Source of the DNA: Longitalea arenae | GTDB taxonomy: Bacteria > Bacteroidota > Bacteroidia > Chitinophagales > Chitinophagaceae | Reading direction: 5' to 3' | DNA length: 64,000 nt | Assembly: GCF_016924755.1 (NCBI RefSeq) | Contig: NZ_JAFFJX010000015.1 | Location: 1 to 64,000 of the forward strand | In this document: piece by piece, positions 1 through 63,022 of the stretch | How the letters are laid out: each line of letters opens with the position of its first letter | Position numbering within the stretch: the first letter of the stretch is position 1 | Position numbers and translations under genes: made by a program | The notes under the pieces: generated by a model | Databases searched by the model: none | Seen by the model: only the letters and a program-made list of their open reading frames with translations | Told to the model about the DNA's origin: nothing

Positions 1-377
1 ATACCTAAAAATCCTTTATTATTCTCCTTTATAGGGCTTGTAACCTGATAAAACTCAAAAAAAGGTCGTCAAACCTTTTATTATCAACCTCTCTTACAAA
101 AAACACTATTTTTACCGGACACCAATGGTTCGCAAGTCACAGTTGGCAGTTGGCAGTTTCCGGTTCCAGGTTACAAGTAACAGGGCTCTTGGTGCAGGCC
201 GATATATTAAATGACGGCTCTTCTAAGTGTTGGGGCCTTGTACCCTGCAACCTGTGACCTGTAACTACTTGCCCGAATTCACCGAACCAGCTATATTCCG
301 GAATGCGGGCGTAAACCAATAGCGATTGTCGTCTCATCATTTAATAATAGCTTTGCCGCCTAATTTTTGAGCAATCT
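1..377. other. Upstream spacer without a gene
   Basis: No convincing coding sequence is present. The first 130 bases are AT-rich; the middle holds an inverted 7-base-period array (138-267, listed separately). A short minus-strand frame crosses this array and has no recognisable protein features. The permease at 378 may be the tail of an ABC operon whose ATPase lies outside the window, but nothing visible here proves it. Confidence 0.6.
138..267. repeat. Heptad array, inverted arms
   Basis: The left arm (138-179) is six 7-base units, starting with the GGCAGTT type and changing to the CCGGTT/CCAGGTT type while keeping exact phase. The right arm (240-267) is four units of the GCAACCT/GTGACCT type, roughly the reverse complement of the left arm. 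The 60-base spacer between them is not repetitive. This is one member of the dispersed array class found throughout the window. Confidence 0.8.
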
Positions 378-1472
378 ATGTCTGGTCAATATAACCAATG
401 GACCGCCATGTGGGCGATATGCAAAGCCACTATGCGGGCCATCTTTAAAAGCCCCCAGGCCATATTCTTCAGCCTTTTCTTTCCCATTGTGCTGATCATG
501 GTCTTTGGCGCCCTGGCGGGGGGTGGCGGAAAAGCCTATGATATTGCCTTCGACGTTAAAAGCGATACCCTGAGTCCCCTTTATTACTGGATAAAAAGCA
601 ACGCCCTGTTCGATGTACATGAGGGCAGCGAGGAAGAACTGCTCGACCGCCTGAAAAAAGGACGGATCACCGCAATGATCGACGTGCACAGGCTTCCGGA
701 ACATACATCTCCTCAATATGAGATCCGGTTAAAGACCACCTCGGCCGGCCAGCGTGAGCTGCCTGCGGTGCGGGAAGTGCTGGAAAGCATTATTGCCCGG
801 GTCACTGCAATTGGTAATGAATACCGGGTGGCTACGATCAGAGTAGAAGAGATCCCCGGACGCCGCTACCGGATGATCGACTTTTATTTGCCCGGTATGC
901 TGGGTTTCTCCCTTATAGGTTCGGCTGTATTTGGAGTAGCGTTCGTCTTTTTTACCCTTCGGGAAACCCTGGTATTAAAACGGATGTTTGCCACCCCGGT
1001 TAAAAAAACTTTTATCGTACTGGGCGAAAGCCTGGCGCGGGTGCTATTTCAGCTAACTACTTCCATTGTATTGATCCTATTCGGCACCTTCTTTTATCAT
1101 TTTACGCTGGCGCATGGGGTTATCACCTTCCTGGAACTACTGGTGCTGAGCTTTTTGGGAATTACCGTGTTTATGGGCTTTGGCTTTATCATCAGCAGCC
1201 TGGCCAAAAACCAGCATGTGATACCGATCTATGCCAACCTGTTCATGTTTCCCCAGTACTTTTTATCAGGCACCTTTTTTCCAAAGGGGTTATTGCCCGA
1301 CAGCCTGCAGGCGATCATCAATTACCTGCCCTTAACGGCGCTGAATGATGCCATGCGGAAAGTGTCATTTGAAGGAATGCACCTGCTGGGGGTAGGTAAG
1401 GAGATCACTATTCTTATTGTTTGGTGCCTGTTGGCCTATAGTGTGCTGATAAGGATCTTCAGGTGGGAGTGA
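378..1472 (+). CDS. ABC-2 type transporter permease
   Basis: A 364-residue inner-membrane permease of the ABC-2 family, the membrane part of an ATP-driven exporter or antibiotic-resistance type transporter. The layout is typical: one transmembrane helix near residues 25-45, a soluble extracytoplasmic domain of about 120 residues, then five or six hydrophobic segments from about residue 170 to the end, including the polar FFPKGLLP loop characteristic of this family. The ATPase partner is not in the window and would be expected upstream. Substrate cannot be told. The downstream spacer is filled by an 8-base-period array. Confidence 0.88.
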   Translation: MSGQYNQWTAMWAICKATMRAIFKSPQAIFFSLFFPIVLIMVFGALAGGGGKAYDIAFDVKSDTLSPLYYWIKSNALFDVHEGSEEELLDRLKKGRITAMIDVHRLPEHTSPQYEIRLKTTSAGQRELPAVREVLESIIARVTAIGNEYRVATIRVEEIPGRRYRMIDFYLPGMLGFSLIGSAVFGVAFVFFTLRETLVLKRMFATPVKKTFIVLGESLARVLFQLTTSIVLILFGTFFYHFTLAHGVITFLELLVLSFLGITVFMGFGFIISSLAKNQHVIPIYANLFMFPQYFLSGTFFPKGLLPDSLQAIINYLPLTALNDAMRKVSFEGMHLLGVGKEITILIVWCLLAYSVLIRIFRWE

Positions 1473-1484
1473 AAAGGTAATTGC

Positions 1485-1682
1485 TGATTTCGGGATGTAC
1501 GATTTCAGGATTACTTTATATGCGACCATCAGAATGAGTGTCAAAATCCCGAAATCTCAAACCCGGAAAACAAGATCCGGGTCCCGGGTTCTTACAATGT
1601 TAAAAATCCGGAATCCAGCAATCAAGAATCCCAAAATCTCAAAATCAAGAAATCCCAAAATCAAGAAATCCTAAAAATTCCC
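1485..1682. repeat. Octad array, inverted arms
   Basis: The left arm (1485-1516) has four 8-base units of the GGATTTCG type. The right side (1541-1564 and about 1606-1682) has units of the reverse-complement type (AAATCCCA, AAATCAAG). Successive ATC triplets on the right side lie 7 or 8 bases apart over about 70 bases. The array ends two bases before the ATG of the next gene. The same unit family occurs after xylA and before the DoxX gene. Confidence 0.8.
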
Positions 1683-1684
1683 GA

Positions 1685-2179
1685 ATGCGATTTATAAAAC
1701 TGGCTATTATCAGTGCGATCATCCTGTCAATTGTCATTTATCTTTTTTCATTGATCATACCATCGCAGGTGCGGGTTTCCCGCGCCATTAATATTTCAGC
1801 GCCTAAAGACAGTTTGCGGGCCGCTCTTGCGGATCTGCGGCAATGGAAAAACTGGAATGAGCTGGTGAACAGTGCAGACCTTACCAATAAGCAATATACC
1901 GATCAGCAGTTTTCGAGCGATCAACTGACAGTCACGAAAAATGCGCTGGTGGGTGATTCTCTGCTTACCAACTGGCAGCAAAAGAATGCGCGCATGCTTT
2001 CCAGTGGGTTTGTATGGCTCGGCGAAGACGGGCAACTGGTGCTGCAATGGTATTTTGATATAAAATTGCGCTGGTACCCCTGGGAAAAATTTGGTAGCAT
2101 AGTTTTTGATAAGCAATTGGGGCCGTCTATGGAGAAATCGCTGGGTAACCTGAAAAAGTTGCTGGAGGAAAATCCATAA
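1685..2179 (+). CDS. SRPBCC-fold membrane-anchored protein
   Basis: A 164-residue protein with an N-terminal hydrophobic helix (residues 5-25) followed by a domain resembling the polyketide-cyclase/START-like SRPBCC superfamily (the VSRAINISAPKDSLRAALADL stretch is the usual first strand and helix). Members bind hydrophobic ligands; no catalytic residues can be assigned from sequence alone. It is probably anchored to the membrane with the domain outside the cytoplasm. The ATG is preceded directly by the 8-base-period array rather than by a recognisable ribosome binding site. Confidence 0.75.
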   Translation: MRFIKLAIISAIILSIVIYLFSLIIPSQVRVSRAINISAPKDSLRAALADLRQWKNWNELVNSADLTNKQYTDQQFSSDQLTVTKNALVGDSLLTNWQQKNARMLSSGFVWLGEDGQLVLQWYFDIKLRWYPWEKFGSIVFDKQLGPSMEKSLGNLKKLLEENP

Positions 2180-2297
2180 AGGCTTATTTTTCATTTATTA
2201 AATCAGGTAGTATAAAGCGGAGCATGATAACTTGTTCTTTTTATCTGCCCGAGGAAATAACTCTCTGACATTTAAAAAACTATAAAAAACATTCCAG

Positions 2298-2810: not shown

Positions 2811-2840
2811 GTTTCACGTATAAAAGAGTAAAGTAAGAAA

Positions 2841-2880
2841 GAGCTGTCCTGAGCGTTAGCGAAGGATGGCTCTTTTATTT
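2841..2880 (+). terminator. Intrinsic terminator after DUF2911 gene
   Basis: GAGCTGTCC (2841-2849) pairs, with two wobble pairs, with GGATGGCTC (2864-2872); an inner GC-rich part tightens the stem. A short T-rich tract follows. Confidence 0.65.
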
Positions 2881-2883
2881 TTA

Positions 2884-3042
2884 CCAGTTACCGGTTGCCA
2901 GATACCGGTTGCCGGCTATTTAAGTGATCCCTTTTTGCTTCCAAGAAAGTGTTACAGGTTTCAGGTTAGGTTTCATGCTCCCATTTACTGGCGGCATTTT
3001 ACAAATTTGCAAGGCCCTGGAACCTGTAACCTGGAACAGATG
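2884..3042. repeat. Heptad array, inverted arms
   Basis: Positions 2884-2918 are five consecutive 7-base units alternating CCGGTTG with CCAGTTA/CCAGATA types. A second run (2950-2970, GTTACAG/GTTTCAG) is mirrored by 3016-3036 (CCTGGAA/CCTGTAA units), giving inverted arms about 45 bases apart. Confidence 0.8.
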
Positions 3043-7977: not shown

Positions 7978-8011
7978 CATTTGTTGATCATACAGTTCGT
8001 TTAAGATTTGA

Positions 8012-8038
8012 CCCTGCTGTTTACAGCAGGGTTTTTTT
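8012..8038 (+). terminator. Intrinsic terminator of SusCD operon
   Basis: A perfect 8-bp stem CCCTGCTG/CAGCAGGG (8012-8019, 8024-8031) with a TTTA loop and seven T residues. Confidence 0.92.
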
Positions 8039-8178
8039 ATGGATTTTGGTTGATGAATATCAAATAATGGGTGCTCACCGGTTTATTTCTCAATACATCT
8101 ATATATTTGAGGGATATCAAAGTAAAATTGTTAAAGTAATTGGAGCTGTCGGAATATGATTCTGTAGTTTTGTTATCT

Positions 8179-8445
8179 ATGGCAATTTCCACTATCGGCA
8201 TGATCGCTGCCCTGCTTACCACAGCGGCTTATATTCCGCAGGCGTATAAAACCATCAGAACGAGATCAACCAAAGATCTTTCACTTGTTACTTTTTCAAT
8301 GCTTTTTATTGGAACCATACTTTGGTTCATTTATGGGTTGTATATTCACGATACGCCTTTAATGTTGGCCAACGGGATCACGGCTACTTTATCGGGTATC
8401 ATATTTTTTCTTAAGATAAGTTCGTCTAAAAAACGACGGAGATAA
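8179..8445 (+). CDS. SemiSWEET-type sugar transporter
   Basis: An 88-residue three-helix membrane protein of the SemiSWEET/MtN3 (PQ-loop) family; such proteins dimerise to form a sugar facilitator. The family marks are visible: the first helix with TTAAYIPQAYKT (the PQ motif), the RSTKDLSL turn, a second helix IGTILWFIYGLYI, and a third starting LANGITATLSG. An upstream TTG at 8140 would give 13 extra residues, but the ATG at 8179 matches the usual length and start of the family, so it is preferred. It lies 9 bases ahead of the GNAT gene and is probably co-transcribed with it. Confidence 0.85.
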   Translation: MAISTIGMIAALLTTAAYIPQAYKTIRTRSTKDLSLVTFSMLFIGTILWFIYGLYIHDTPLMLANGITATLSGIIFFLKISSSKKRRR

Positions 8446-8454
8446 AATTATAAT

Positions 8455-10159: not shown

Positions 10160-10167
10160 CAAAAATA
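10160..10167 (-). promoter_or_regulatory. Candidate -7 box of bioA
   Basis: TATTTTTG on the minus strand matches the Bacteroidota TAnnTTTG element. No TTG -33 element lies at 17-20 bases; the upstream bases belong to the heptad array. Confidence 0.45.
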
Positions 10168-10248
10168 GTTCACAGTTGGCAGTTTTCAGTTGGCAGTTTT
10201 CAATGGAAGGGGGCAAGCGCCAATTGCCAACTGCCTACTGCCTCGCCG
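10165..10248. repeat. Heptad array, inverted arms
   Basis: The left arm (10165-10205) alternates GGCAGTT and TTCAGTT units in strict 7-base phase; the right arm (10221-10248) has CAACTGC/CTACTGC units, its reverse complement. It fills the divergent spacer between bioA and the sigma factor gene and begins inside the bioA -7 box. Confidence 0.82.
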
Positions 10249-14586: not shown

Positions 14587-15516
14587 TCAACCTTTCAAAA
14601 ATCTTACGTTTCGTTGTATGCCCTGGAATTTGGCGCGTTTTAGTGGGGAATGACGGAAGATCTTTTTGAATGCTTCTTCTGTCAGTGATTCCCATTCTTT
14701 GGTAGTGAAGTTGAGGATCTCGGGTATTGGCGTAAAACCCGTTTCACGGGTAGGCTGGGCGAAGCGGTTCCAGGGACAAACATCCTGGCATACATCACAG
14801 CCAAACATCCAGTCGGCGAACTGGCCTTTTTTATCGTCAGGCAGTAAAAGATCTTTTAATTCTATCGTATAATAAGAAATGCACTGGCTGCCATTGATCA
14901 CTTTGCCTTCCGAAATAGCACCGGTAGGGCAGGCATCGATACAGCGGCGGCAACTCCCGCAATAATCTTTGGCAATGGGATCGTCGTATTCCAGCTCAAG
15001 ATCAACGATGAGGGTGGCAATAAAAAAGAAAGAACCCTGTTGTTTGGTGATCAGGTTACCGTTCTTGCCGATCCAGCCCAGGCCGCTGCGCTGGGCCCAG
15101 CTTCTTTCGAGTACCGGTGCTGAATCCACAAAACCTCTTCCCTGTACTTCCCCGATATGTTCATTGATAAGCGCCAGCAGGGTATGCAGCTTTTTTTTGA
15201 TCACTTCGTGGTAATCTGCTCCATAGGCATATTTTGAAATACGGGGTGTGCCGCTTGTTTGTTGTTGCTGCGGAAAGTAGTTCAGCAATACAGTGATCAC
15301 CGATTGGGCGCCCGGCACCAGTTTGGTGGGGTCGATGCGCAGGTCGAAATAATTTTCCATATACTGCATGTTGCCATGCAGGCCTTGTTGCAGCCATTGC
15401 TCGAGCCGCCGGGCATCCTCTTCCAGGCGCTGTGCCCGGGCTATGCCGCAAAAGTCGAAACCCAGTTCACGAACGAAGGACTTAATTTGTTCGGTATGTT
15501 TAAGTTTGTGGTTTAT
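14587..15516 (-). CDS. queG: Epoxyqueuosine reductase QueG, no standard start codon
   Basis: Cobalamin and iron-sulfur enzyme that performs the last step of queuosine synthesis, reducing epoxyqueuosine in tRNA. Seen: SGLGWIGKNGNLIT, two ferredoxin-type cysteine clusters (CGSCRRCIDACPTG and CDVCQDVCPWN) and the C-terminal RHSPLKRAKFQGIQRN motif. From the first ATG (15369) the protein is 260 residues and lacks its N-terminus, yet the frame continues upstream with typical QueG sequence (ELGFDFCGIARA, RRLEQWLQQGLHGNM) to a stop at 15520-15522. No ATG, GTG, TTG or CTG lies in that stretch. The best start by position is ATA at 15514-15516, inside a 7-base-period array. The true start is unresolved. 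Confidence 0.85.
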   Translation of the reverse strand: MNHKLKHTEQIKSFVRELGFDFCGIARAQRLEEDARRLEQWLQQGLHGNMQYMENYFDLRIDPTKLVPGAQSVITVLLNYFPQQQQTSGTPRISKYAYGADYHEVIKKKLHTLLALINEHIGEVQGRGFVDSAPVLERSWAQRSGLGWIGKNGNLITKQQGSFFFIATLIVDLELEYDDPIAKDYCGSCRRCIDACPTGAISEGKVINGSQCISYYTIELKDLLLPDDKKGQFADWMFGCDVCQDVCPWNRFAQPTRETGFTPIPEILNFTTKEWESLTEEAFKKIFRHSPLKRAKFQGIQRNVRFLKG

Positions 15517-15597
15517 TGTTTATAGTTTATGTTGTTATTGTCGCCTTCGGCGTTTTTCGTTCAGCATTTAGCTTTCCGCATTCAGTATTCTGAATTC
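15499..15597. repeat. Two heptad arrays joining queG start and AraC end
   Basis: On the minus strand, 15499-15534 has units of the ATAAACT/ATAAACC type leading into queG; 15558-15597 has units of the GAATTCA/GAATGCG type covering the last nine sense codons of the AraC gene plus its stop. A small GCC-TTC-GGC hairpin lies between them. Confidence 0.75.
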
Positions 15598-16467
15598 ATC
15601 CTGTAAATAATCTTCCTGCTCCTGGATGCGGAACTTTTTACGGAAACCAGATGGGGTAAGCTGTTTCAGCTTTAAGAACTGTTTGTTGAAATTAGCCAGG
15701 GTATTAAAACCACTTTCAATACTGATCTCCAGTACAGTCTTTTGGGTATCGATCAACAGCTTACAGGCATGCCCAATGCGTACTTCATTTAAGAAATCGA
15801 CATAGGTCTTCTTGGTGCATTTTTTAAAGTAACTGCAAAAGGCCGGAATGCTCATACCGGCGGTAGCCGCTACATCACAAAGGGCGATCGGTTCCTGGAA
15901 ATTATCAATGGTGAATTGGAAGATCCGGTCGATGCGGTCCTTATTTTTTGCCTGAAAGGTCTTCACTTCCTGGGTAGAGACCGTTTCATATTCATGAGCG
16001 GCGGCTATGGCCTGCAGGCATTCGCAGAGCCGGATGATGCGGGCGAAGCCTTCCAGGTATTCCAGCTCAATTAATAAGGGTCTCAGTTGCTGCCGGGTGG
16101 CGCCTTTTATCTTCAGGCCCTGCATGGCCGCGGCGAATAATTTCTGAATGCTTTTGCTTTCGGGCAAATGCATAAAATCCGGTCCCCAGAAATCGTCGGT
16201 GAACTGCACCACCACAGCAGCCGTGATAAGGTCTTTATGGGCTTTTTGAAAGGTATGCGGCAGGTTGCTGCCCAGGAAAAAAACATCATCGGTCTTGAAT
16301 TCGCCAATATAATTCCCGATAAAGGCGGTGCCTTCGCCTTCAATGAACAGGATCAGCTCGTATTCAATATGCTGGTGCCAGGGCACTTCAAAATGCGGCG
16401 TACGATAGGTGCGCGCTACAAATGAGGTGTTCTGGGAAAGCGGTAATTTTTCAACTAAAGGTTTCAT
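15568..16467 (-). CDS. AraC-family transcriptional regulator, probable xylose regulator
   Basis: A 299-residue regulator: an N-terminal cupin-like ligand-binding domain (HFEVPWHQHIEYELILFIEGEGTAF, histidines and glycine turn visible) and a C-terminal double helix-turn-helix of about 100 residues (IALCDVAATAGMSIPAFCSYFKKCT and VLEISIESGFNTLANFNKQF, then LTPSGFRKKF). It is divergent from xylB-xylA-symporter across a 257-base spacer, so it most likely senses xylose or a related sugar and controls that cluster; this is inference from position. The last nine residues (EFRILNAES) are encoded by a 7-base-period array and are outside the domain. Confidence 0.9.
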   Translation of the reverse strand: MKPLVEKLPLSQNTSFVARTYRTPHFEVPWHQHIEYELILFIEGEGTAFIGNYIGEFKTDDVFFLGSNLPHTFQKAHKDLITAAVVVQFTDDFWGPDFMHLPESKSIQKLFAAAMQGLKIKGATRQQLRPLLIELEYLEGFARIIRLCECLQAIAAAHEYETVSTQEVKTFQAKNKDRIDRIFQFTIDNFQEPIALCDVAATAGMSIPAFCSYFKKCTKKTYVDFLNEVRIGHACKLLIDTQKTVLEISIESGFNTLANFNKQFLKLKQLTPSGFRKKFRIQEQEDYLQDEFRILNAES

Positions 16468-18331: not shown

Positions 18332-19660
18332 ATGAAAATCATAACAGGAGAAAAAGAATACTTCAAAGGTATTGGTTCCATCAAATACGAAGGTGTGGAA
18401 AGCGACAATCCACTGGCCTTTAAATGGTATGATGAAAATAAGGTAATAGCCGGCAAAACGATGAAAGAACATTTACGGTTTGCAGTGTGTTACTGGCATA
18501 CCTTCTGTAACACCGGCGCCGATCCTTTTGGTCCAGGCACAAAACATTTTCCCTGGGATGCAGCCGGCGATGCCAACCAACGTGCGAAAGACAAAATGGA
18601 TGCAGCCTTTGAATTCATTACCAAACTGGGCGTTCCCTACTATTGCTTTCACGATATTGACCTGGTTGATGAAGGGGCTAACTTAAAAGAATATGAAAGC
18701 CGCCTGCAAAATATTGTGGACTATGCCAAACAAAAACAACAGGCAAGCGGCGTGAAATTATTGTGGGGTACAGCCAACGTGTTTTCAAATCCCCGTTATA
18801 TGAATGGAGCTTCCACCAACCCTGACTTTGCTGCCGTGGCTTATGCCGGTACACAGGTAAAAAATGCATTGGATGCTACCATTGCGCTGGGCGGTGAAAA
18901 TTATGTCTTCTGGGGTGGCCGGGAAGGTTATATGAGCCTGCTGAACACCAATATGAAACGGGAGCTCGATCACCTGGGCCGTTTCCTCACGATGGCGCGC
19001 GACTATGCCCGCAAACAGGGATTCAAGGGCGTATTCTTCATTGAACCCAAACCCTGCGAGCCTACCAAACACCAATACGATTTTGACTGCGCTACCGTGA
19101 TCGGTTTTCTGCGTCATTACGGGCTTGATAAAGACTTTAAAATAAATATTGAGGTAAACCACGCTACCCTGGCCGGACATACCTTCCAGCACGAATTACA
19201 GGTAGCTGCCGATGCCGGCATGCTGGGAAGCATCGATGCCAACAGGGGCGATGATCAGAATGGCTGGGATACCGACCAGTTCCCCATTGACCTGAATGAA
19301 TTAGTAGAAAGCATGCTCATCATCCTGGAAGCCGGTGGCTTTGCGGGAGGCGGGGTAAACTTCGACGCGAAAACGCGCCGTAATTCTACTGACCTGGAGG
19401 ATATCTTTATTGCACATATCGGTGGTATGGATGCATTTGCCCGCGCGCTGACGATCGCTGACCGGGTATTGCAGAAATCGCCTTACCTGAAATTCCGTAA
19501 AGACCGCTATGCTTCATTCGACAGTGGTAAAGGAAAAGAGTTTGAGACCGGCGCCCTGAAGCTGGAAGACCTGCGCGAGTACGCCCTGTCAAACGGCGAG
19601 CCCAAACAGATCAGCGGTAAACAGGAGTGGCTGGAGAACATCATCAATCAATACATTTAG
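18332..19660 (+). CDS. xylA: Xylose isomerase
   Basis: A 442-residue enzyme converting D-xylose to D-xylulose, with two divalent metal sites. The class II type signature is strong: HDIDL with the catalytic histidine near residue 108, [28 protein letters not shown] with metal ligand Glu and the active-site Lys, [22 protein letters not shown] and the [13 protein letters not shown] end. It lies 128 bases after xylB and is followed by the transporter gene. The last base of its stop codon is also the first base of an 8-base-period array. Confidence 0.97.
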
Positions 19661-19787
19661 GATCTTCGGATGTTGCGATCTCGGGATATTGGGATTCCGG
19701 GATCTATGGATTTTGGGTTTTGAGATTTGTCCGGGTGTTCAAACATCAACAAATCTCAAAATCTTAAATCCCGAGATCAGAAATCCC
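19660..19787. repeat. Octad array, inverted arms, starts in xylA stop codon
   Basis: The left arm from 19660 has nine consecutive 8-base units of the GGATCTTC/GGATATTG type; the right arm (19740-19787) has six reverse-complement units (CAAAATCT type). The two arms are separated by under 10 bases, so a long imperfect hairpin is possible. The first G is the last base of the TAG of xylA. Confidence 0.85.
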
Positions 19788-22132: not shown

Positions 22133-22290
22133 AAGAGTACGGTCTGGTTCGGAAATATAGCTGATTAATTAAATATAAGCATATCCGGCCGGTTTTGCAA
22201 GCGCCCGGAATGCGGAATTACATGGATTTAACAATACAGGTAGTTAAGAGTGCGGGGATGGTGAATGGTCACAGGGGCGCGCAGAAGCAG

Positions 22291-22322
22291 TTATCACATC
22301 GTCACATTATCAATGATCACAT
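22291..22322. repeat. Octad array
   Basis: Four units of the TTATCACA/TCGTCACA/GATCACAT type in 8-base phase. Same unit family as the arrays before clpB, before queD and after the RmlD-like gene. Confidence 0.65.
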
Positions 22323-23735: not shown

Positions 23736-23783
23736 ATTCAATTATCAAATGATCACATTATCAAATCATCACATTAATCATAT
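23736..23783. repeat. Octad array abutting clpB start codon
   Basis: Six units in 8-base phase, alternating ATCAAATG/ATCACATT types, ending AATCATAT with the last two bases being the first two of the clpB ATG. Confidence 0.8.
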
Positions 23784-26394: not shown

Positions 26395-26531
26395 GCAAAG
26401 TGGTAATAATATGACAGGAGATGTTGGTAGAATTTTTAATGAATCGTTAAAAGAATGGGATTTGCCGCCAGCTGAGAACTATATGATCGAGATGATGTTA
26501 TTTAATGTGAGTGAGAGAAAACATGTGAACA

Positions 26532-26587
26532 AAAACCTGTCAGGTCCATTACGAGGTAAAGATTTTGGGGTAGACCTGACAGGTTTT
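26532..26587. terminator. Hairpin of CCTGTCAGG family after clpB
   Basis: A perfect 15-bp stem: left arm 26532-26546 (AAAACCTGTCAGGTC), right arm 26573-26587, with a 26-base loop. A and T tracts at the two ends make it symmetrical. The same stem core occurs after glnS. Confidence 0.75.
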
Positions 26588-26632
26588 GTATGAACAGGTG
26601 AATTTGAGGAATTATTAGTTAGTTGAGACCAG

Positions 26633-26664
26633 GCCACTCTGCTGTAAGTAGAGTGGCTTTTTTT
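26633..26664 (+). terminator. Intrinsic terminator upstream of DsbA-like gene
   Basis: GCCACTCT (26633-26640) and AGAGTGGC (26650-26657), a 9-base loop and seven T residues. It probably closes clpB transcription before the DsbA-like gene. Confidence 0.85.
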
Positions 26665-26709
26665 CGTCGATCCATAAAAGCAAAAAAACAATACAAAGAG
26701 GAGCGATAT

Positions 26710-27267: not shown

Positions 27268-27362
27268 CTATACTTACAGACCATGAATAAAGGCCGGTAA
27301 GCGATCGGTGGATAAAGAAAACATTAGTGAGAAACGGATGGTGGTCTGGGTGAAGTGTACGT

Positions 27363-27392
27363 AAAAAGGTGTTGTGAATACAGCACCTTTTT
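27363..27392. terminator. Terminator after DsbA-like gene
   Basis: AAAAAGGTG (27363-27371) and CACCTTTTT (27384-27392), symmetrical A and T tracts, so usable on both strands. Confidence 0.8.
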
Positions 27393-27741
27393 GCTTTTTA
27401 TTCCCTTTTTTTACCAAAAAGCAGGCTTTGAAGCGCCCTTTTAAAAAAAAATTAAAATTATTTTTCGCAGACATTGAATTTCCAATGGATAGTAAAAAGC
27501 TAAAGAATTCACGTGAATTTCTGCCACACTAAAGCATTTTTGAGTTGAGATCACGAGAATATGGCCTCAATTTGCAGGTGGAGATGAATTCAGCAATCAG
27601 AAACAAAACATGATATTTTATTTAATATAATGCCTGCAGGCTCGTTGCGGCGCCAAATTCCGCACTAACACTTGTTTGATTGGCGAGAAAAAAGAAACTT
27701 TGGTTAATCATTTAAATTATAACGATTGCCTGTTCATACAT

Positions 27742-27766
27742 GCTCCCGGTTCCGGGAGCTTTTTTT
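27742..27766 (+). terminator. Orphan strong intrinsic terminator
   Basis: A perfect 8-bp GC-rich stem GCTCCCGG/CCGGGAGC with a TT loop and seven T residues. No plus-strand gene precedes it within 350 bases other than the already terminated DsbA-like gene. Confidence 0.85.
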
Positions 27767-27846
27767 ATGCCCGTACAAAAAGAAGGCAGTGTAGAAACAC
27801 CGCCCTGAATGAATGAATGAATGATTGCTTGCCATATGAAAAACAG

Positions 27847-27917
27847 CAGTTACGGGTGGATTCGAACCACCGTAAGAGGGTTTGCTAGCCTCCGCCTTCC
27901 CCCTCGGCCACGTAACT
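27847..27917 (-). tRNA. tRNA-like gene with irregular anticodon arm
   Basis: On the minus strand: a 7-bp acceptor stem (AGTTACG/CGTAACT, all paired), U8-G9, a D arm GCC...GGC with A14, G18-G19 and A21 in place, a 4-base variable region, and a perfect T arm (GGTGG, TTCGAAT, CCACC), G at position 73. The anticodon arm is odd: in the standard 17-base layout position 33 is A instead of U, pair 31-39 is C-C, and positions 34-36 read GCA (Cys), although G73 does not suit cysteine. A Ser-type reading would need the missing long variable arm. It may be a tRNA pseudogene or an unusual tRNA. The length is 71 bases and CCA is not encoded. Confidence 0.6.
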
Positions 27918-27946
27918 CATGTAAGAAATAGTGAACTTGAAGCACT

Positions 27947-29536: not shown

Positions 29537-30076
29537 GCGTCGATATTTAATGATGAAAAATATATACCCCTAAGGTTATAGGATCAACATCGTGCTTTTG
29601 AATAATAAAGTCGCATGGTGGTCTATTTCATCACAATGATACATCAATTTACTAAGTCTACAAAAAAGGTGGACTAAAAATATTTATTAAAAAGAAGCGG
29701 CCGGCAGTAGAGGGTAGACTGTTAATTTATCAGAAGGTTTGATCAGCAGGTTGTTTATGGATGGTAATCGGATAATTTTTTCAAAAAAAGCAGTGTGCGT
29801 TACAGACAGTATTTAGTTGGATATGTGAATACATTTATAGGTACAATTTTCGAGTACAGATGCATAAGAATTTTAAACGCTGCTGAATTGTTTTTGATTC
29901 AAAGCAAACCAATCGAAAATGAAATCAATGGAAACCTTTTTATGTATGTAAGGATTGGTGCCCTGGGCCCAATATATTTATATACATGTGCCAGGGATCA
30001 ATCAGCGATACTTCAACTGCTGGCAGCATCGGTTGCCAGGTATTTTATCGTCCAGGGTGAATGGTGAATAGGATTA

Positions 30077-30100
30077 ATGATCAAATTATCACATTAGTAC
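30077..30100. repeat. Short octad array upstream of queD
   Basis: Three units in 8-base phase (ATGATCAA, ATTATCAC, ATTAGTAC) of the ATCAAATT family, ending 8 bases before the -7 box of queD. Confidence 0.55.
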
Positions 30101-30108
30101 AATATTCT

Positions 30109-30522: not shown

Positions 30523-30655
30523 TGATTTCGGGATTGCGAGATGTTGTGATTCACTGGAGTGAACTTTCCGGCAAATCTCAATAAGCGCATGATTGGGAAA
30601 CCTAAGATTTTCAGATCTCGAAATCCCGAAATCCCGCAATCTCAAAATCGAATTA
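30523..30655. repeat. Octad array, inverted arms, ends in DoxX stop codon
   Basis: The left arm (30523-30554) has four units of the TGATTTCG/GGATTGCG type; the right arm (30616-30655) has five of the TCCCGAAA type. The last three bases are the stop codon of the convergent DoxX gene. Confidence 0.82.
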
Positions 30656-35141: not shown

Positions 35142-35581
35142 GAATAAAATCTGTTTTATTTATAAATCTTCGAATCTGCAAAGGAAATCGATAAAGGCTG
35201 TTTACCAGTTTTTTGAAAGGCGGCCCAAAAATAAGGTTTTGTTTTGATACACGTATTAAGTACACGCTGACTCAAAAAAACACTAAAATTGTTTTATAAA
35301 TTGATGTTTTTTTTGCGAAACACTATTTTTTTTATCCATTATTGTGGTTTTATTAAGGAAACGGGTTTAGGGTATGCGGTTGAAGCTGAACGCCTTTTCG
35401 AGGTTCAAGATAGTAAATGTGTGAGAAAGAAATGCTTAATAAATTAAGCAACCGTATGCCTGCGGTTACAGCGCCTGTTGAATGAAAGCAAACGAAATAT
35501 TGTAAAGGAATATGAAACGCCCAGAGCCTGCATTTGATTATCATCCGGCGGGTATCTGGTTAAACGCAATAATAATTTTTA
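35142..35581. other. Divergent spacer pfkA / RmlD-like gene
   Basis: A 440-base AT-rich spacer, rich in poly-T and poly-A tracts around 35280-35350, with no gene or repeat array. It must contain the pfkA and reductase promoters. A near-match to the -7 box (TTCCTTTG, minus strand, about 35177-35184) lies ahead of pfkA. Confidence 0.4.
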
Positions 35582-36466
35582 ATGAAAGTATTGATCACCG
35601 GAGCTAATGGATTATTAGGTCAGCATTTGACCAAATTATTACTTGATAAGCACTATCAGGTAGTGGCAACAAGCCGGGGCGAATCGCGATTGCCATTTGA
35701 ACCATCAGCCAACTATACCTATCATCCAATGGATATTGCCGATGGAATGGAAACTGCTGCAATCATGAACCTCGAACGACCCGATGTAGTAGTGCATGCC
35801 GCAGCTATGACCCAGGTAGATGAATGTGAGCTGCGCCCGCAACAATGCGAACGGGTGAATGTGCAGGGTACTTCGCAGGTGCTTACAGATGCTGAAACTT
35901 TTAGCAGTCACTTCATTTATATTTCAACCGATTTTGTTTTTGATGGCGAGCGGGGAAATTATGCCGAAGAGGATGATACAAAACCGATCAGTTTATACGG
36001 CTTTACCAAACTGCAGGCTGAAAGTATGGTTGAAACCAGCGAGATCCCCTTCGCTATCGTGCGTACATGCCTCGTATATGGTAACCTGTTGAAAGGCACC
36101 CGCAGCAATATTGTAAGCTGGGTGAAACAAAGTCTTGAACAGAACAAAACCATTCAGGTAGTCAGCGATCAGCTGCGCACGCCCACCTATGTGGGAGACC
36201 TGGCAAAAGGCATTGCCCTGATCATTGAAAAAAAGGCGACCGGCATTTATCACATTTCGGGGAAGGACTGGTTAACGCCCTATGATATCGCTATTAAAAC
36301 GGCCCACAAATTCAAGCTCGATGCCAGCAAGATCGTGAAGGTGGATGCTTCTACCTTCAAACAACCTGGCCGCCGGCCATTGAAAACAGGGTTTGTTATA
36401 GAAAAAGCAAGAAAAGAATTAGGCTATGAACCTATGTCGTTTGATGAAGCGCTGAATTTAATTTGA
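35582..36466 (+). CDS. RmlD-like SDR family oxidoreductase
   Basis: A 294-residue NAD(P)-dependent extended SDR with the nucleotide-binding start GANGLLGQHL, the VHAAAMTQVDECE stretch, ISTDFVFDGERGNYAEED, and the active-site Y-x-x-x-K as YGFTKLQAE. The overall pattern is that of dTDP-4-dehydrorhamnose reductases (RmlD), which make dTDP-L-rhamnose. No other rhamnose genes are nearby, so a related sugar-nucleotide or general reductase function remains possible. The stop codon is embedded in an 8-base-period array. Confidence 0.85.
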   Translation: MKVLITGANGLLGQHLTKLLLDKHYQVVATSRGESRLPFEPSANYTYHPMDIADGMETAAIMNLERPDVVVHAAAMTQVDECELRPQQCERVNVQGTSQVLTDAETFSSHFIYISTDFVFDGERGNYAEEDDTKPISLYGFTKLQAESMVETSEIPFAIVRTCLVYGNLLKGTRSNIVSWVKQSLEQNKTIQVVSDQLRTPTYVGDLAKGIALIIEKKATGIYHISGKDWLTPYDIAIKTAHKFKLDASKIVKVDASTFKQPGRRPLKTGFVIEKARKELGYEPMSFDEALNLI

Positions 36467-36568
36467 CAATTTGATAATTTGATAATTCGATAATGTGATA
36501 ATGCCTTTTTCGATAACCCTGGTTTAATCAGCAAATCAGCACATCAGCAAATCAGCACATCAGAACAC
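36461..36568. repeat. Octad arrays across two convergent stop codons
   Basis: The left arm (36461-36500) has five units of the ATTTGATA type, beginning at the last sense codon of the RmlD-like gene. The right arm (36529-36568) has five units alternating CAGCAAAT and CAGCACAT and covers the stop codon of the convergent CtlX gene. The arms are in opposite orientation. Confidence 0.85.
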
Positions 36569-45556: not shown

Positions 45557-45560
45557 CGAA

Positions 45561-45709
45561 GTCAGAAATCGGAAGTACATACATAAAAAAACCTGTCAGG
45601 AACGAAATCGGTATAGTGATGTTGAATGACCGATAGAGCCTGACAGGTTTTTTATTTAAATCTCCGACTGCTGATTTCCATTTACTTCCTACTTCCGACC
45701 TCTTAGTTC
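45561..45709. repeat. Heptad array around terminator, enters M20 peptidase gene
   Basis: From 45661 to 45709 there are seven 7-base units of the TTACTTC/CTACTTC type; the inverted partner on the left is short (around 45561-45580, CGGAAGTA type). The arms flank the CCTGTCAGG terminator. The right arm covers the stop and the last six codons (ELRGRK) of the convergent M20 peptidase gene. Confidence 0.72.
45585..45653. terminator. Hairpin of CCTGTCAGG family between glnS and M20 gene
   Basis: AAAAAACCTGTCAGG (45586-45600) and CCTGACAGGTTTTTT (45639-45653), 15 bp perfect, 38-base loop. Symmetrical A and T tracts serve both convergent genes. The core stem is the same as in 26532-26587. Confidence 0.88.
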
Positions 45710-48364: not shown

Positions 48365-48369
48365 ACTTT

Positions 48370-48439
48370 ATAGTTCACAGTTCTGAGTTCACCGTTGACA
48401 CCGGCTGCTAAAAACTTAGAACTTTAAACTTAGAACTTA
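48370..48439. repeat. Heptad array, inverted arms, ends in mutase stop codon
   Basis: The left arm (48370-48397) has units ATAGTTC, ACAGTTC, TGAGTTC in 7-base phase; the right arm (48411-48438) alternates AAAACTT/AGAACTT/TAAACTT and includes the first two bases of the mutase stop codon (48437-48439). Confidence 0.85.
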
Positions 48440-50569: not shown

Positions 50570-50577
50570 CAAAAATA
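50570..50577 (-). promoter_or_regulatory. Candidate -7 box of membrane protein-mutase operon
   Basis: TATTTTTG on the minus strand, 19 bases ahead of the ATG. The sequence upstream of it is a heptad array, just as at bioA. Confidence 0.42.
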
Positions 50578-50609
50578 GTTCTTAGTTTTAAGTTCTTAGT
50601 AATAAGTTA
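50575..50609. repeat. Heptad array adjoining -7 box
   Basis: Five units (ATAGTTC, TTAGTTT, TAAGTTC, TTAGTAA, TAAGTTA) in strict 7-base phase, sharing bases with the -7 box of the minus-strand operon. Confidence 0.75.
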
Positions 50610-50660
50610 TTTAAACGAAAAGCCGGGGGTTACAGTATATAAAACAAATGTTCCCCGGTA

Positions 50661-50762
50661 CCAGTTGCCTGTTGCCGGTTTTCAGGCATTGCAACAAGTT
50701 CTGTTAAATCACATCAAAGACAGCTATGCTGTTCAAACCGGTGACCGGTAACTGGCACCCGG
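50661..50762. repeat. Heptad array, inverted arms, in divergent spacer
   Basis: The left arm (50661-50681) has units CCAGTTG, CCTGTTG, CCGGTTT; the right arm (50735-50762) has AAACCGG, TGACCGG, TAACTGG, CACCCGG. It precedes the IscA-type gene. Confidence 0.8.
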
Positions 50763-51584: not shown

Positions 51585-51625
51585 GAGCCGGTAGACGGTA
51601 GCCGGTAACCGGCATCTACAGGCTA
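51585..51625. repeat. Heptad array ending in response regulator stop codon
   Basis: Units GAGCCGG, TAGACGG, TAGCCGG, TAACCGG and CATCTAC in 7-base phase; the end coincides with the stop codon (51623-51625) of the minus-strand regulator. Confidence 0.7.
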
Positions 51626-59713: not shown

Positions 59714-59738
59714 AAAAAGCCCTCCGTTAACGGAGGGC
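59714..59738 (-). terminator. Intrinsic terminator of secDF
   Basis: On the minus strand GCCCTCCG, TTAA loop, CGGAGGGC, then five T residues (A tract 59714-59718). It lies 26 bases after the secDF stop codon. Confidence 0.92.
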
Positions 59739-59763
59739 CTTGCTATAATGAAAGATTAATTTA

Positions 59764-62700
59764 TTAAGCTTTCTTGGCCAGTGCCGGTTTTTGAGCGGTA
59801 CTGCTTGCTTTTGGCTCAGGAGCGGGTTCACCCAGTGGTTTGTTTTTGGCAAAGTCGATCAGGATCGGCGCTGCCACAAAGATGGATGAATAAGTACCGG
59901 TAATAACACCGATCAACATCGCAAAGGCGAAACCTTTGGTAACCTCGCCGCCGACCAGGAAGAGGATGAGGATGGTGAGGAATACCGTGAGCGAGGTCAT
60001 GATGGTACGGCTCAGGGTCTCGTTGATCGCTTTGTTGATGATAGTTGTTTTATCGGCCCCGTGCATGGTATGACTGTATTCGCGGATACGGTCGTACACG
60101 ATCACCGTATCGTTCATTGAGAAACCGATCACGGTCAGGATCGCAGCAATGAAGTGCTGGTCAATTTCAAGCGGGAAAGGCACCACATCTTTGAGGAAGG
60201 AGAATACCGCCATGGTAACCAGTACGTCGTGCAGCAGGGCAATGATGGTTCCCACAGAATATCTCCAGTCGCGGAAACGGATGAAGATATAAATAGCGAT
60301 GATCAGCATTGACCAGAAAGTTGCCCATTGGGCGCCTGCTTTCAGGTCATCGGAAATGGTGGGGTTCACCTTGTTGCTACCTTCCAGCAAACGGTTATTG
60401 AAATCCTGCTGGGTGGTTGCTTCCGGCAGGAAAGGTTTCAAACCGCTATACAGGGTGCTTTGCACGGCTGAGTCAACGCTTAGGCCGGTTTCTGCTACCC
60501 GGTAATCAGTAGTTATATTCAGTTTACTGGTGCCGCCGTACGTTTTAATAACCGGCGTGCTTCCAAATGTTTTCTCCAGTGCATTCCGTACTTCTTCTGC
60601 ATTCACTTCTTTACCAAAGTTCACCACATAACTTCTACCACCACTGAATTCAACACCATATCTGAAACCATGGAAGAAAGAAGCTATACCCACTAACAAT
60701 ACGACTGCTGAGATCACGTAAGCGATCTTCCGGTATTGGATGAATTTGAAAGCAGCGTGTTTGAAGATGCGTTTTGATAAAGCGGTAAAATATTTAAAAT
60801 GCCTGTTCTTATTGGTATAGAAGTCTGTGATCAGGCGTGATACCAGGATACCGCAGAACAACGATAACAAAATACCGAGGATCTGGGTGGTAGCGAAACC
60901 TAATACAGGGCCTAAACCGTAAATGAACAGGATGATCGCCGTTAACAGGGTGGTGATGTGTGCATCCAGTACCGGAGGTAATGAACGCAGGTACCCGGTT
61001 TTCACCGCCTGCGCGTAATTGCTGCCTTTCGACAGTTCCTCCTTGATACGCTCAAAGATGATCACGTTCGTGTCTACCGCCATACCAATGGTCAATACCA
61101 GACCGGCAATACCGGGTGCGGTTAAGGTGGCATTCAGGGCGCTCAGTACGCCGATGGTAAACAACAGGTTCAATATCAGGGCGATGTTGGCAACAATACC
61201 TGCGGTATTGTAGTAAACCAGCATCAAAATGAATATTACGATAAATGAAATGGCGAAGGCCATGATACCGCCGTTTACGGCTTGTTCACCGAGGGTGGGA
61301 CCAACCACCTGCTCCTGAACGATGATGGCGGGGGCTTCGAGTTTACCGGCTTTCAGGATGTTGGCCAGGTCATTGGCTTCTTCGATCACCAGTTGCTGGT
61401 TTTTACCACCTGAACCCATGGTAATGCGGGAGTTGCCGCCTTCGATCTTTTGAATAACGTTGGGTGCGCTATAAACAATGTCATCGAGCACAATGGCGAT
61501 GGGTTTGCCAACATTCTTTTCTGTCATGCGGGCCCAGTTCTTGGCGCCACTGGCATTCATTTCCATGGCCACAGCCACTTCGTTGGTAACCTGGTCAAAT
61601 TCCTGGCGGGCGTCTACGATCGCATCGCCTTCCAGTTCTGCGCGGTCTCTTCCGGGAACGGTCTTAATGGCGTAGAGTCTGAGGAAATTGCTCAGTTTTC
61701 CATCGTCGTCACGGTCTTGTTTGCCCCAGAGGAATTTAACGTTGGCAGGGAAACTGTTGCGAACAGCAGGAATGCTCAGGTATCTGTTCACGGTACCGGT
61801 ATCAGCCAGGAGGGCCAAACCAATAGAAGGAGAGTAGCTCACCTTGCCGGTGTTGGGATCCTGCTGCGGCGGAATGAATTTTATTTTGCTGGCCAGAATG
61901 TTACGGCTGGCGGCAGAAGTATCTTTTTGGGTAGAATCGATAGCACCGGTAGAATCGAGCTTTGTATATGACAGGTAGTCATCGAGCGCTTTAGAGGCGT
62001 TCATTACTGAGCTGGAAAGTTCCTCAAGGGTGTACACTTCCCAGAATTGCAGGTTGGCGGTTGATTGCAGGTATTTACGAACCCTTTCAGGATCGCTGGC
62101 GCCGGCCAGTTCTACGGTGATGATACCTTTATTTTCGTCAAGGCTGATATTGGGCTGGGCTACACCGAACTTGTCAATACGTTTACGCAGCACCTGGAAG
62201 GTCTGTTTCATGGCGGCATTGGCCTGTTCGTGGATGTAGTCTAATACCCTGTTATCGGAAGCGGTTGCGCTCAGTTTGTTGTTGGCGTTCGCGAACAGGG
62301 GAGCCAGTTTGTTGGCGCTGTTCTGCTCACGGTAGGCGTTGGCAAACAGATCGATAAAGTTTTGATCGCTGGTTAATTTCCGTCTTTGGGCTTCAGCGAT
62401 CGCTTTCAGTAACTGGGGGTCTTTGGGATTGTTAGCCAGGCCTTTGATGAGACCGTCGAGGGCTATATCCATTGTTACGTTGATACCACCTTGCAGGTCG
62501 AGACCCAGCAACAGTTCGCTTTCTTTAGCTTTCTGGTAGGACTGACCCCACCAGGTAATTTTTTTGTCTCTTGAAGCAGTCAGCAAGCTATCGAGGAAAG
62601 CGTCGCGTGCATTGTCCACGGTGTCTTTGTATAAGGCCCGGGCTTCGGTGTTGGTGGGATACTTTTGGGCAGGAGTAAGGGGATAGGTCCGTTTAACATA

Positions 62701-62817
62701 GGCATCTGCTTTTTTACCCATTTCTTTTTCGTGCTGGTTAACAAACCAGGTAAACGAAAGCTGGTATAAAGAGATCAGGATCAACAGACCTGCAAAAATG
62801 CTAACCAGTGCTCTCAT
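59764..62817 (-). CDS. secDF: Protein translocase subunit SecDF (fused)
   Basis: A 1017-residue fusion of SecD and SecF, the proton-driven helper of Sec protein export. The SecD half has helix 1 at the start, the ELLLGLDLQGGINVTMDI motif, a long periplasmic domain (about 120-500) and the helices with VVGPTLGEQAVNGG, LTIGMAVDTNVIIFERIKEEL. The SecF half begins near residue 690 with FHGFRYGVEFSGGRSYVV and ends with VIGFSMNDTVIVYDRIRE and the LTVFLTILILFLVGGEVTKGFAFAMLIG helices. Twelve transmembrane segments are expected. The periplasmic domain is larger than in many SecDs, with an insertion rich in polar residues around 290-330. Confidence 0.97.
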   Translation of the reverse strand: MRALVSIFAGLLILISLYQLSFTWFVNQHEKEMGKKADAYVKRTYPLTPAQKYPTNTEARALYKDTVDNARDAFLDSLLTASRDKKITWWGQSYQKAKESELLLGLDLQGGINVTMDIALDGLIKGLANNPKDPQLLKAIAEAQRRKLTSDQNFIDLFANAYREQNSANKLAPLFANANNKLSATASDNRVLDYIHEQANAAMKQTFQVLRKRIDKFGVAQPNISLDENKGIITVELAGASDPERVRKYLQSTANLQFWEVYTLEELSSSVMNASKALDDYLSYTKLDSTGAIDSTQKDTSAASRNILASKIKFIPPQQDPNTGKVSYSPSIGLALLADTGTVNRYLSIPAVRNSFPANVKFLWGKQDRDDDGKLSNFLRLYAIKTVPGRDRAELEGDAIVDARQEFDQVTNEVAVAMEMNASGAKNWARMTEKNVGKPIAIVLDDIVYSAPNVIQKIEGGNSRITMGSGGKNQQLVIEEANDLANILKAGKLEAPAIIVQEQVVGPTLGEQAVNGGIMAFAISFIVIFILMLVYYNTAGIVANIALILNLLFTIGVLSALNATLTAPGIAGLVLTIGMAVDTNVIIFERIKEELSKGSNYAQAVKTGYLRSLPPVLDAHITTLLTAIILFIYGLGPVLGFATTQILGILLSLFCGILVSRLITDFYTNKNRHFKYFTALSKRIFKHAAFKFIQYRKIAYVISAVVLLVGIASFFHGFRYGVEFSGGRSYVVNFGKEVNAEEVRNALEKTFGSTPVIKTYGGTSKLNITTDYRVAETGLSVDSAVQSTLYSGLKPFLPEATTQQDFNNRLLEGSNKVNPTISDDLKAGAQWATFWSMLIIAIYIFIRFRDWRYSVGTIIALLHDVLVTMAVFSFLKDVVPFPLEIDQHFIAAILTVIGFSMNDTVIVYDRIREYSHTMHGADKTTIINKAINETLSRTIMTSLTVFLTILILFLVGGEVTKGFAFAMLIGVITGTYSSIFVAAPILIDFAKNKPLGEPAPEPKASSTAQKPALAKKA

Positions 62818-62848
62818 TGGATTGTGTCATTTATTTTTTTAGAGTTGG

Positions 62849-62856
62849 CAAAGATA
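62849..62856 (-). promoter_or_regulatory. Candidate -7 box of secDF
   Basis: TATCTTTG on the minus strand followed by CC, 31 bases before the ATG. The -33 is not evident. Confidence 0.45.
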
Positions 62857-62930
62857 GTGTTTTCGGTCAGAAACCAGGTAGTTTGTTGCGTTTAACTCGC
62901 TACTGGCGGCCATTTTCCGGAAATTCCGTC

Positions 62931-63022
62931 ACCGGTTACCTGATGCCGGTTACCGGGCGCTGAATTTCAGGGTTTCGGACCGGTTTTCTGGTCCCCTGTA
63001 ACCGGTGACCGGGAACCGGGAA
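62931..63022. repeat. Heptad array, inverted arms
   Basis: The left arm (62931-62958) has units ACCGGTT, ACCTGAT, GCCGGTT, ACCGGGC; the right arm (62995-63022) has CCTGTAA, CCGGTGA, CCGGGAA twice. It lies in the divergent spacer between secDF and the aminotransferase gene. Confidence 0.85.

Follow-up and report, generated by a model that had tools for sequence, protein, structure and literature searches.

Between the protein genes of a 64,000-nucleotide stretch of the Longitalea arenae genome (positions 1 to 64,000 of contig NZ_JAFFJX010000015.1, here called the window) lie short tandem arrays with a period of seven or eight bases, some of which face a second arm in inverted orientation. The question raised by this locus is what these arrays are and what has placed them there. 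The arrays form a single architectural class, and they are probably the arms of intergenic hairpins which resemble the intervening sequences (IVSs) of rRNA genes and which are partnered with S23p proteins (PF05635, 23S_rRNA_IVP) in a way similar to the partnership of RAYT proteins with REPINs, the hairpins formed by repetitive extragenic palindromic (REP) sequences.

The genome of the window (G000) comprises 7.28 Mb in 40 contigs, of which 1.26 Mb (~17%) were sampled; genes were called by our own hexamer score and the spacers between called genes were analyzed. A preliminary description of the window had proposed that spacers carry arrays of period 7 or 8, and this was borne out. A total of 187 segments at lag 7 and 118 at lag 8 were found in the 789 spacers of the larger sample (184.8 kb), compared to 9.7 and 7.0 with three shuffles. 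In these spacers, lags 4, 5, 6 and 12 were at chance (11, 11, 11 and 12 segments) and lags 9, 10, 11 and 13 were raised two- to fourfold (21 vs 8, 10 vs 6, 24 vs 6 and 17 vs 8). Autocorrelation against dinucleotide-preserving shuffles, the check that had been suggested, also gave an excess (265 spacers, 63.9 kb, 100 shuffles), with z=13.6 at lag 7 and z=6.3 at lag 8. The harmonics at lags 14, 21 and 16 reached z values of 8.2, 7.4 and 4.0, lags 9-12 remained between -0.4 and 1.6, and lags 3, 4 and 6 were likewise raised (6.3, 5.2 and 3.1). Arrays were present in 190 of the 789 spacers, and the coding sequence of the first sample contained just four lag-7 segments and one lag-8 segment at threshold 11.

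Instead of the one fixed and perfect unit of long simple sequence repeats (LSSRs), most of the arrays shown have units that vary within the array, a few (e.g. CCCATTG) being nearly pure. The proposed distinction from microsatellites is upheld, and the architecture persists at sites while the sequence changes. Long, nearly pure heptamer arrays (AAGCTGA; AAGCTGTAAGCTAT) that extend far beyond the usual three to nine units were observed at G002:C1:1236880-1237079 and G001:C8:131577-131882. Twelve families with three or more arms each take in 250 of the 295 arms, and each family recurs at several to dozens of loci. The largest of them contain 60 arms (8-mer AATGTGCT), 58 (7-mer GTTACCG), 43 (7-mer ATTGCCA), 23 (8-mer AAATCTCA), 14, 14, 13 and 11 arms. 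Unit sequence is therefore not arbitrary, since each family retains its own, and the suggested copying that conserves length and not sequence is better described as several element families turning over at shared sites, together with unit drift within families.

A second, inverted arm had been described as the usual case. Inverted partners are real, although they were seen for only about 37% of the arms: at a score of at least 11, 109 of the 295 arms have one (best of five shuffles, 11), and at a score of at least 13, 76 arms have one and the shuffles none. Among 121 pairs of arms with the same spacer and period, 60 were more alike inverted and 61 direct, where long arrays that the detector had split add to the direct count. 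Of the 67 two-arm elements extracted, 55 have a left arm richer in G than in C, 9 one richer in C than in G, and 3 one with equal numbers. Arms without a detected partner mostly obey the same G/C polarity in tandem, convergent and divergent spacers, and AATTTGAA matches in two Pinibacter-type genomes, among the matches listed and judged by eye, mostly run plus then minus. Since the arm polarity is fixed, the elements have a defined inside and outside. A purine/pyrimidine polarity was rejected, the left arm being purine-richer in just 35 of the 67 elements, and the rule is thus one of G over C. Register-exact palindrome copies were also rejected, as the best-offset identity of 145 arms was 0.665 compared to 0.640 one unit off; the arms therefore match by family more than unit by unit, and a median of 23% of the arms elsewhere match a given arm as well as its own partner does.

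Longer elements of this kind enclose a gene. The open reading frame (ORF) between two GTTGTTAG arms in spacer A1:85529 of Pinibacter aurantiacus encodes what we take to be an S23p-like protein, and a hidden Markov model (HMM) built from such loci matches it at E 1.4e-43. By an HMM-based count, 109 PF05635 genes were placed in 112 loci, with the exclusion of L312, which has no PF05635 gene, and of L322 and L345, which yielded no ORF. Arrays of 7- or 8-mers flank these genes on both sides in 85 of the 109 cases, on one side in 19 and on neither side in 5, in loci that were top-ranked or hand-chosen instead of randomly drawn and that are not independent (those of the genus form ~21 ortholog groups, and other genera mostly contribute one or two per genome). 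Of the 69 places over the cut-off in the genus, 65 were taken, the others being three in G004 and one in G007. Control ORFs in the first 80 loci have arrays on both sides in 1 of 61 cases and on one side in 11. The arm polarity is kept around the gene, with G-rich outnumbering C-rich left arms 52 to 11 and C-rich outnumbering G-rich right arms 60 to 5 in the first 79 genes.

The gene-bearing copies share with the 23S rRNA IVSs an S23p ORF inside the element, between complementary borders able to form a stem-loop (at least one arm is present in 104 of the 109 cases). IVSs with such an ORF, e.g. that of Coxiella, are described as small, bounded by complementary stem-loop sequences, and selfish or parasitic (PMC4990558). 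Whereas known IVSs lie in rRNA genes, the elements found here are situated between protein genes, with arms made of tandem 7/8-mers and with many gene-less copies per family. The four helix bundle model TIGR02436 was found in all four G000 proteins tried, and the S23p proteins are homologous to PDB entries 2gsc and 2rld, of which 2gsc (XCC0516) is reported to form a ring composed of five four-helix bundles (PMC4990558). PF05635 was called a functionally uncharacterised domain in 2024 (PMC11270868). One Q, one S and two E residues are nearly invariant (96-100%) in 99 aligned PF05635 proteins (L237-L348), which may indicate that an active or binding site is conserved in a protein frequently regarded as a passenger ORF. 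The gene is mostly inherited vertically, as 25 of 29 close S23p pairs (identity of at least 0.7, flanks long enough) share both flanks.

These observations bear on a purely mutational origin, in which slippage favours units of 7-8 nt, template switching makes the inverted arms and unconstrained spacers accumulate the arrays. Heptanucleotides are reported to be the commonest long simple repeats in most repeat-rich genomes and slippage has been proposed for them (Mrazek 2007, as described in PMC4679880), and the near absence of arrays from coding sequence fits as well. However, the same unit family at many loci speaks against independent slippage, which gives neither one family at dozens of loci nor a fixed polarity, and one gene family has arrays beside it in 104 of 109 cases. 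Slippage probably contributes by the gain or loss of whole units, but neutral mutation as the sole cause is hard to keep and we consider it very improbable.

The association with S23p extends to the unit sequences. Six PF05635 genes were found in G000; one contains an internal stop, and for one no right arm was detected. Each of the six has arms that correspond to a different dispersed family. These families comprise 60, 58, 43, 23, 14 and 11 arms and are six of the eight largest in this genome. Median scores range from 12 to 24.5, and the next-best family is clearly separated in all cases but that of the related pair F3/F8. Since one of the six genes is located within the sample, the arms around it are counted in its 60-arm family. 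With a cut of 12, set after the six had been seen, a G000 family is matched by the S23p arms of 8 of 26 loci elsewhere in the genus and of 4 of 43 loci in other genera. Six genes in the whole genome compare with the 190 array-bearing spacers in 1.26 of its 7.28 Mb. This proportion of few genes to many short palindromes is that of RAYT/REPIN systems.

Across related genomes, 349 arrays were tried, G000 being entered with 150 of its arms, and 295 were assigned to an S23p group; the group was resident in the same genome for 210 of these, compared to 127 expected with the set of another genome. AAGCT-type matches number 178, 40, 94, 10 and 4 in the five genomes with the AAGCTGC group and 2, 0, 0, 0 and 0 in the other five, among which one gene of G003 was not read and the G006 genome is 61% complete. 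GTTGACA-type matches are frequent in the genomes with the corresponding group (G002, G005, G007 and G009) and scarce in G000, G001, G003 and G008. Dispersed arrays resemble the gene arms of their own species more than those of other species on average (mean 0.652, 311 arrays), with 19 of 30 combinations above 0.5, 7 below and 4 equal.

S23p groups of the genus mostly keep their kind of unit and its period across species, with unit drift in some (AAGCTGC to AAGGCTAAAGC, AGTGGCT to AGGGCAG). Nearest-neighbour S23p proteins share the period in 68 of 75 cases (shuffled mean, 52), so the period of 7 or 8 goes with the S23p lineage. Arms match in 91% of the 34 pairs with a protein identity of at least 0.7 and in 0-2% of those below 0.35. 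In L270 (G005), a member of the AGTTC group, both arms consist of 8-mers (TTAAGTTA type) and the other six members have 7-mers, i.e., the period of both arms has changed. Shared inner flanks were considered as proof that the short elements are deletion products of gene-bearing ones and set aside, the resemblance being only faint.

In a survey of 149 genomes, which used one unit pattern and its mirror, misses other units and ignores the kinship of the genomes, the number of array matches correlated with the PF05635 count at rho 0.58, or 0.45 as a partial correlation given genome size and RAYT. Array matches were found in 101 of the 123 genomes with PF05635. RAYT (PF01797) is common in the order, with occurrences in 112 of the 149 genomes and two in G000, and its raw correlation with array matches of 0.42 would suit REP/REPIN elements driven by this transposase. 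This correlation vanishes once genome size and PF05635 are taken into account (partial 0.09, permutation p 0.31), and RAYT was rejected as a helper; the association with a Y1/HUH transposase was thus not seen, as judged by correlation alone. The unit architecture is also unlike the tagged 20-40 bp palindromes described for REP sequences (PMC3733652). The distinction from REP sequences and bacterial interspersed mosaic elements (BIMEs) drawn in the preliminary description is in agreement with these results, and a RAYT-driven origin appears extremely unlikely.

Comparison of orthologous spacers, which had also been proposed as a check, showed that arrays persist at sites while their family or period often changes. 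In six species, arrays are co-located but often differ in family, one species having 8-mers where the next has 7-mers, and some spacers of several hundred bases are array-free in every species compared. The sharing of array sites in 15 species pairs has Fisher p values of 2e-5 to 0.08, with spacer length not controlled. A close pair, Pinibacter aurantiacus (L065/G158) and strain 26-R-25 (L071/G159), has 251 of 271 spacers orthologous and flanks that are 91.6% identical. Arrays occur in both members in 142 of the 251 spacers, in one member in 29 and in none in 80. The score rates 100 of the 142 shared sites as conserved and 42 as replaced, including 12 with a change between 7 and 8; it is crude, since on visual inspection 8 of 26 printed replacements show one family that has drifted or been rearranged, and true family changes are nearer to two thirds of the 42. 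At the 29 one-sided sites, the other species holds a different inverted repeat in 19, compared to 1 of 29 when shuffled and 18 of 65 array-free spacers.

In the 35 conserved-arm pairs tested, the centres of the two species were in direct orientation in 25 cases, unrelated in 7 and inverted in three, of which one is weak (score 16 vs threshold 13.2); a further inversion, at A1:135184, was seen by eye and missed by the test. These inversions point to recombination between the arms. As a general cause of differing centres, inversion was rejected with these numbers. Nesting as a frequent mode of insertion was rejected as well, with strict counts of one in the G000 sample, one in G158 and none in G159 (spacers of up to 900 b), and one more nested element by eye at A1:176951. 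Other dispersed inverted repeats, whose units are longer or less regular (AACGCAGATTTTCATGATTGTCATGATT; GCACACAGATGACACGGATT), were observed at several sites where the other species has a 7/8-mer element (L197-L216 and L217-L236 in G158 and G159, e.g. A1:162626 and A1:41128).

The persistence of sites while families change might also be read as selection for a function, in which the hairpins are bidirectional terminators or stabilisers of 3' ends and one is kept per site whatever its family. In favour of this, arrays are present in 45 of 122 convergent, 109 of 525 tandem and 36 of 142 divergent spacers, and the median folding z of the RNA is -4.7 in 59 elements, which were chosen for their inverted arms. 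On the other hand, a run of four or more T follows the right arm in just 8 of 67 elements (background 0.13), 13 of the 67 lie in divergent spacers, where no called gene ends, and the S23p genes are left unexplained. A terminator function as the explanation of the class is very unlikely.

Several observations weigh against a partnership with S23p. Array matches occur in 8 of the 26 genomes without PF05635, and the matches of the pattern search are not numbers of arrays, as they overlap within one array. For two of the eight largest families of G000, with 14 and 13 arms, there is no resident S23p. The unit match of orthologous loci is partly trivial because gene and arms are linked, and just 4 of the 34 pairs with an identity of at least 0.7 cross genera. 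G006 has 31 GTTGACA matches and its one detected S23p belongs to another group (in a genome that is 61% complete), G004 has 3 such matches despite holding the group, its unit having drifted, and the gene of this group in G007 has no detected arms. Resident groups do no better than chance in G007 (18 of 36 vs 16.8 expected), and the resemblance to own gene arms is reversed in G004 (0.05) and for GTTACCG in G007 (0.22). Among the array-present/absent cases listed (of 29; spacers of up to 600 b), none showed a clean empty site with a target duplication, and no movement or insertion event was caught in these comparisons, which are between species. Finally, we know of no catalytic motif in S23p, so another enzyme would be needed.

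In a different account, the hairpin arrays arise by themselves, ORFs are captured in their loops and S23p is a passenger without a role in their spread. Known IVSs replace tetraloops of 23S rRNA helices (PMC4990558), nested elements do occur, and close S23p loci are mostly syntenic, hence jumps are rare. Under random capture, however, six genes would fall into six different families with a probability of 0.05, which also means that the six-gene match alone is moderate. The excess of resident groups, absent from G007, the increase of array matches with PF05635 number beyond genome size, and the period that follows the protein lineage (partly by linkage) likewise speak against capture. We regard passengers as unlikely, and the partnership of the arrays with S23p as the probable explanation.

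This partnership could work as follows. The full-length element carries the PF05635 gene in its centre, and most copies are short and gene-less, presumably derived from full-length ones. Unit sequence and unit length (7 or 8) go with the S23p lineage. The gene mostly keeps its chromosomal place, whereas S23p would disperse the arrays in trans, and short copies with the same unit occupy many spacers, where they replace each other in the manner of REPINs around a RAYT gene; it is the combination of a steady gene and a restless population of short elements that suggests this likeness. The S23p ring may bind the tandem units of the arms as RNA or single-stranded DNA, possibly with one unit per subunit, a guess based on the ring of five and the arrays of three to nine units. 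S23p together with host enzymes would promote copying of the hairpin elsewhere, the copying itself being done by some enzyme of the host or of another element. Copies would preferably land on existing hairpins, which are suggested as targets since the site of a new element has often been that of an older one. The copies would then be remodelled by whole-unit slippage and by recombination of the two arms, with inversion of the centre. A bolder version, which we find conceivable but doubtful, is that S23p is the sequence-specific mobiliser of a new type of nucleic-acid parasite. Its ring would read one 7/8-nt unit per subunit and drive copying to hairpin tips through an RNA or single-stranded DNA intermediate; rRNA IVSs would be landings in rRNA helices, and Avd a branch allied with reverse transcriptase (RT).

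In the window itself, all fourteen places named as clear members have the unit type described for them, as judged by sequence and unit assignment. The spacer detector at its lowest threshold found arrays in 14 window spacers, including one TGAA tract (27268-27946). It did not pick 138-267, which precedes the first called gene, or 45661-45709, which is below threshold; the left arm of the former and the latter nonetheless match unit families of S23p arms. The scores given below are for matches to arms of S23p loci (L numbers), with L284, L293, L297, L298 and L299 belonging to the same genome.

The first element consists of a 7-mer left arm of CAGTTGG / AGGTTAC type at 138-186 on the plus strand (140-158 by Tandem Repeats Finder (TRF); GTTACCG group, L297, score 14) and a right arm at 234-267 on the minus strand, with ACCTGTG ACCTGTA in reverse orientation, which was assigned from sequence and matches weakly (226-267, best 12.0, own genome 9.5). 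An 8-mer left arm of GATTTCGG type at 1485-1512 (plus; from sequence, GATTTTGA group, score 11-12) is followed by a right arm of AAATCCCA type at 1612-1676 (minus; TRF, GATTTTGA group, 27.5 to L299). A 7-mer arm of GTTACCG type at 2884-2918 (plus; 18.5 to L297) precedes a two-arm element with a loop of 50, formed by GTTACAG-type units at 2951-2965 (plus) and CCTGTAA-type units at 3016-3042 (minus). Another two-arm element, with a loop of 24, has CAGTTGGC / AGTTCAC units at 10165-10203 (plus; AGTTC group best) and GCCAACT units at 10215-10248 (minus; GGCAATA group best). The 7-mer array GTTTATA at 15499-15533 (plus) belongs to the GTTTATG group with 20.5 to L293, and the neighbouring 7-mer array at 15560-15600, GAATGCT type on the minus strand by sequence, has its best match in the GAATATT group of a relative (score 15).

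Two 8-mer arms, GATTTTGG at 19660-19730 (plus; 27 to L299) and AAATCTCA at 19749-19787 (minus; 20.5 to L299), form the next element, and an 8-mer array of ATTATCAA / GATCACAT at 23736-23783 (minus) belongs to the AATGTGCT group with 23.5 to L298. The left arm at 30523-30560 consists of GATTTCGG 8-mers (plus; 15.5 to L299) and its right arm at 30604-30650 of AAATCCCG (minus; 30 to L299). For the 8-mer AATTTGAT arm at 36461-36503 (plus; AATGTGCT group), the best match is an arm of the sister species G003 (27.5; own L298 12.5), and its right arm AATCAGCA at 36526-36568 (minus) scores 30 to L298. The weak 7-mer array of CTTACTTCC type at 45661-45709 (minus) matches the GAAGTAG group of relatives, absent from G000, with a score of 20.

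Farther along are the 7-mer arms AGTTCAC at 48367-48400 (plus; 15 to L284) and AACTTAG at 48408-48439 (minus; 17 to L284), and the 7-mer array AAGTTCT at 50575-50612 (plus). A two-arm element with a loop of 55 has GTTGCCG at 50654-50684 (plus; GTTACCG group) and ACCGGTA at 50735-50762 (minus; 15 to L297). The array AGCCGGT at 51585-51625 (plus, 7-mer) matches the GTTACCG group weakly (12.5), and the last element pairs GTTACCG at 62928-62958 (plus; 15 to L297) with CCGGTGA CCGGGAA at 62994-63024 (minus). Many arrays of the window, with 62931-63024 as a whole (L297) among them, map to the families of resident loci; others match S23p-arm groups weakly, and 45661-45709 has its best match outside G000, in relatives.

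The window arrays sit in spacers between protein genes, none of them inside an rRNA gene, and they enclose no PF05635 gene. A search for S23p remnants in the window and in orthologous spacers of the genus longer than 300 b gave no match, and no Rfam match was found anywhere in the window at gathering score. Two further 8-mer arrays of ATTATCAA type, beyond the fourteen clear members, were observed at 22288-22313 and 30076-30104. At 45557-45688, an inverted repeat with A-tract, stem and T-tract (AAAAAAACCTGTCAGG...CCTGACAGGTTTTTT) lies between two weak array arms and looks like a bidirectional terminator. The long spacers 7978-8454 (orthologues in two species), 26395-26709 and 35142-35581 (six species) have no array in any orthologue found, in contrast to shorter array-bearing neighbours, and may be leader or regulatory DNA.

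Likenesses to other known systems are partial. RAYT/REPIN (TnpA-REP) systems consist of a few vertically kept genes and many short palindromic spacer elements in the same genome. This pattern of few steady genes with many short spacer palindromes is also seen here, whereas S23p is a four-helix bundle and not a Y1/HUH transposase, and the elements have tandem 7/8-mer arms with variable centres. Short gene-less copies with inverted ends beside rare gene-bearing copies are also a feature of miniature inverted-repeat transposable elements (MITEs), but the gene here is no DDE transposase, the ends are tandem units that vary between families, and no target duplication was found among the array-present/absent cases listed (of 29). 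PF05635 resembles Avd, a protein of diversity-generating retroelements (DGRs), in sequence and structure (PMC10053308). One of the four G000 proteins tried matched the Avd family NF033474 at E=6.5e-8, below its cut-off, and no RT, template repeat (TR) or variable repeat (VR) was seen in the elements, no search aimed at RT having been made.

Heptamer repeats as such are already known. TAACTGA heptamers occur as intergenic tandem repeats in Beggiatoaceae, Cyanobacteria and some Bacteroidetes (MacGregor 2015, PMC4679880), with one fixed unit, a position in the main genome mostly upstream of start codons, and one inverted case. The arrays described here share with them the intergenic tandem heptamers and the occurrence in Bacteroidetes, and the reverse complement of TAACTGA has GTTA like some of our units. 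They differ in having variable families instead of one fixed unit, and we know of no link of the TAACTGA repeats to S23p. Among the literature matches listed, with subscription papers and preprints outside, titles and abstract openings do not tie PF05635 to tandem 7/8-mer arrays.

The link to S23p offers a reason for the dominance of periods 7 and 8. With it, the orphan family PF05635 would gain a nucleic-acid partner in the form of a large, fast-turning class of intergenic repeats, and rRNA IVSs, heptamer repeats and REPIN-like populations may be joined in one testable frame. The many lineages of the protein, each of which has a unit of distinct sequence and length, would then provide a natural experiment.

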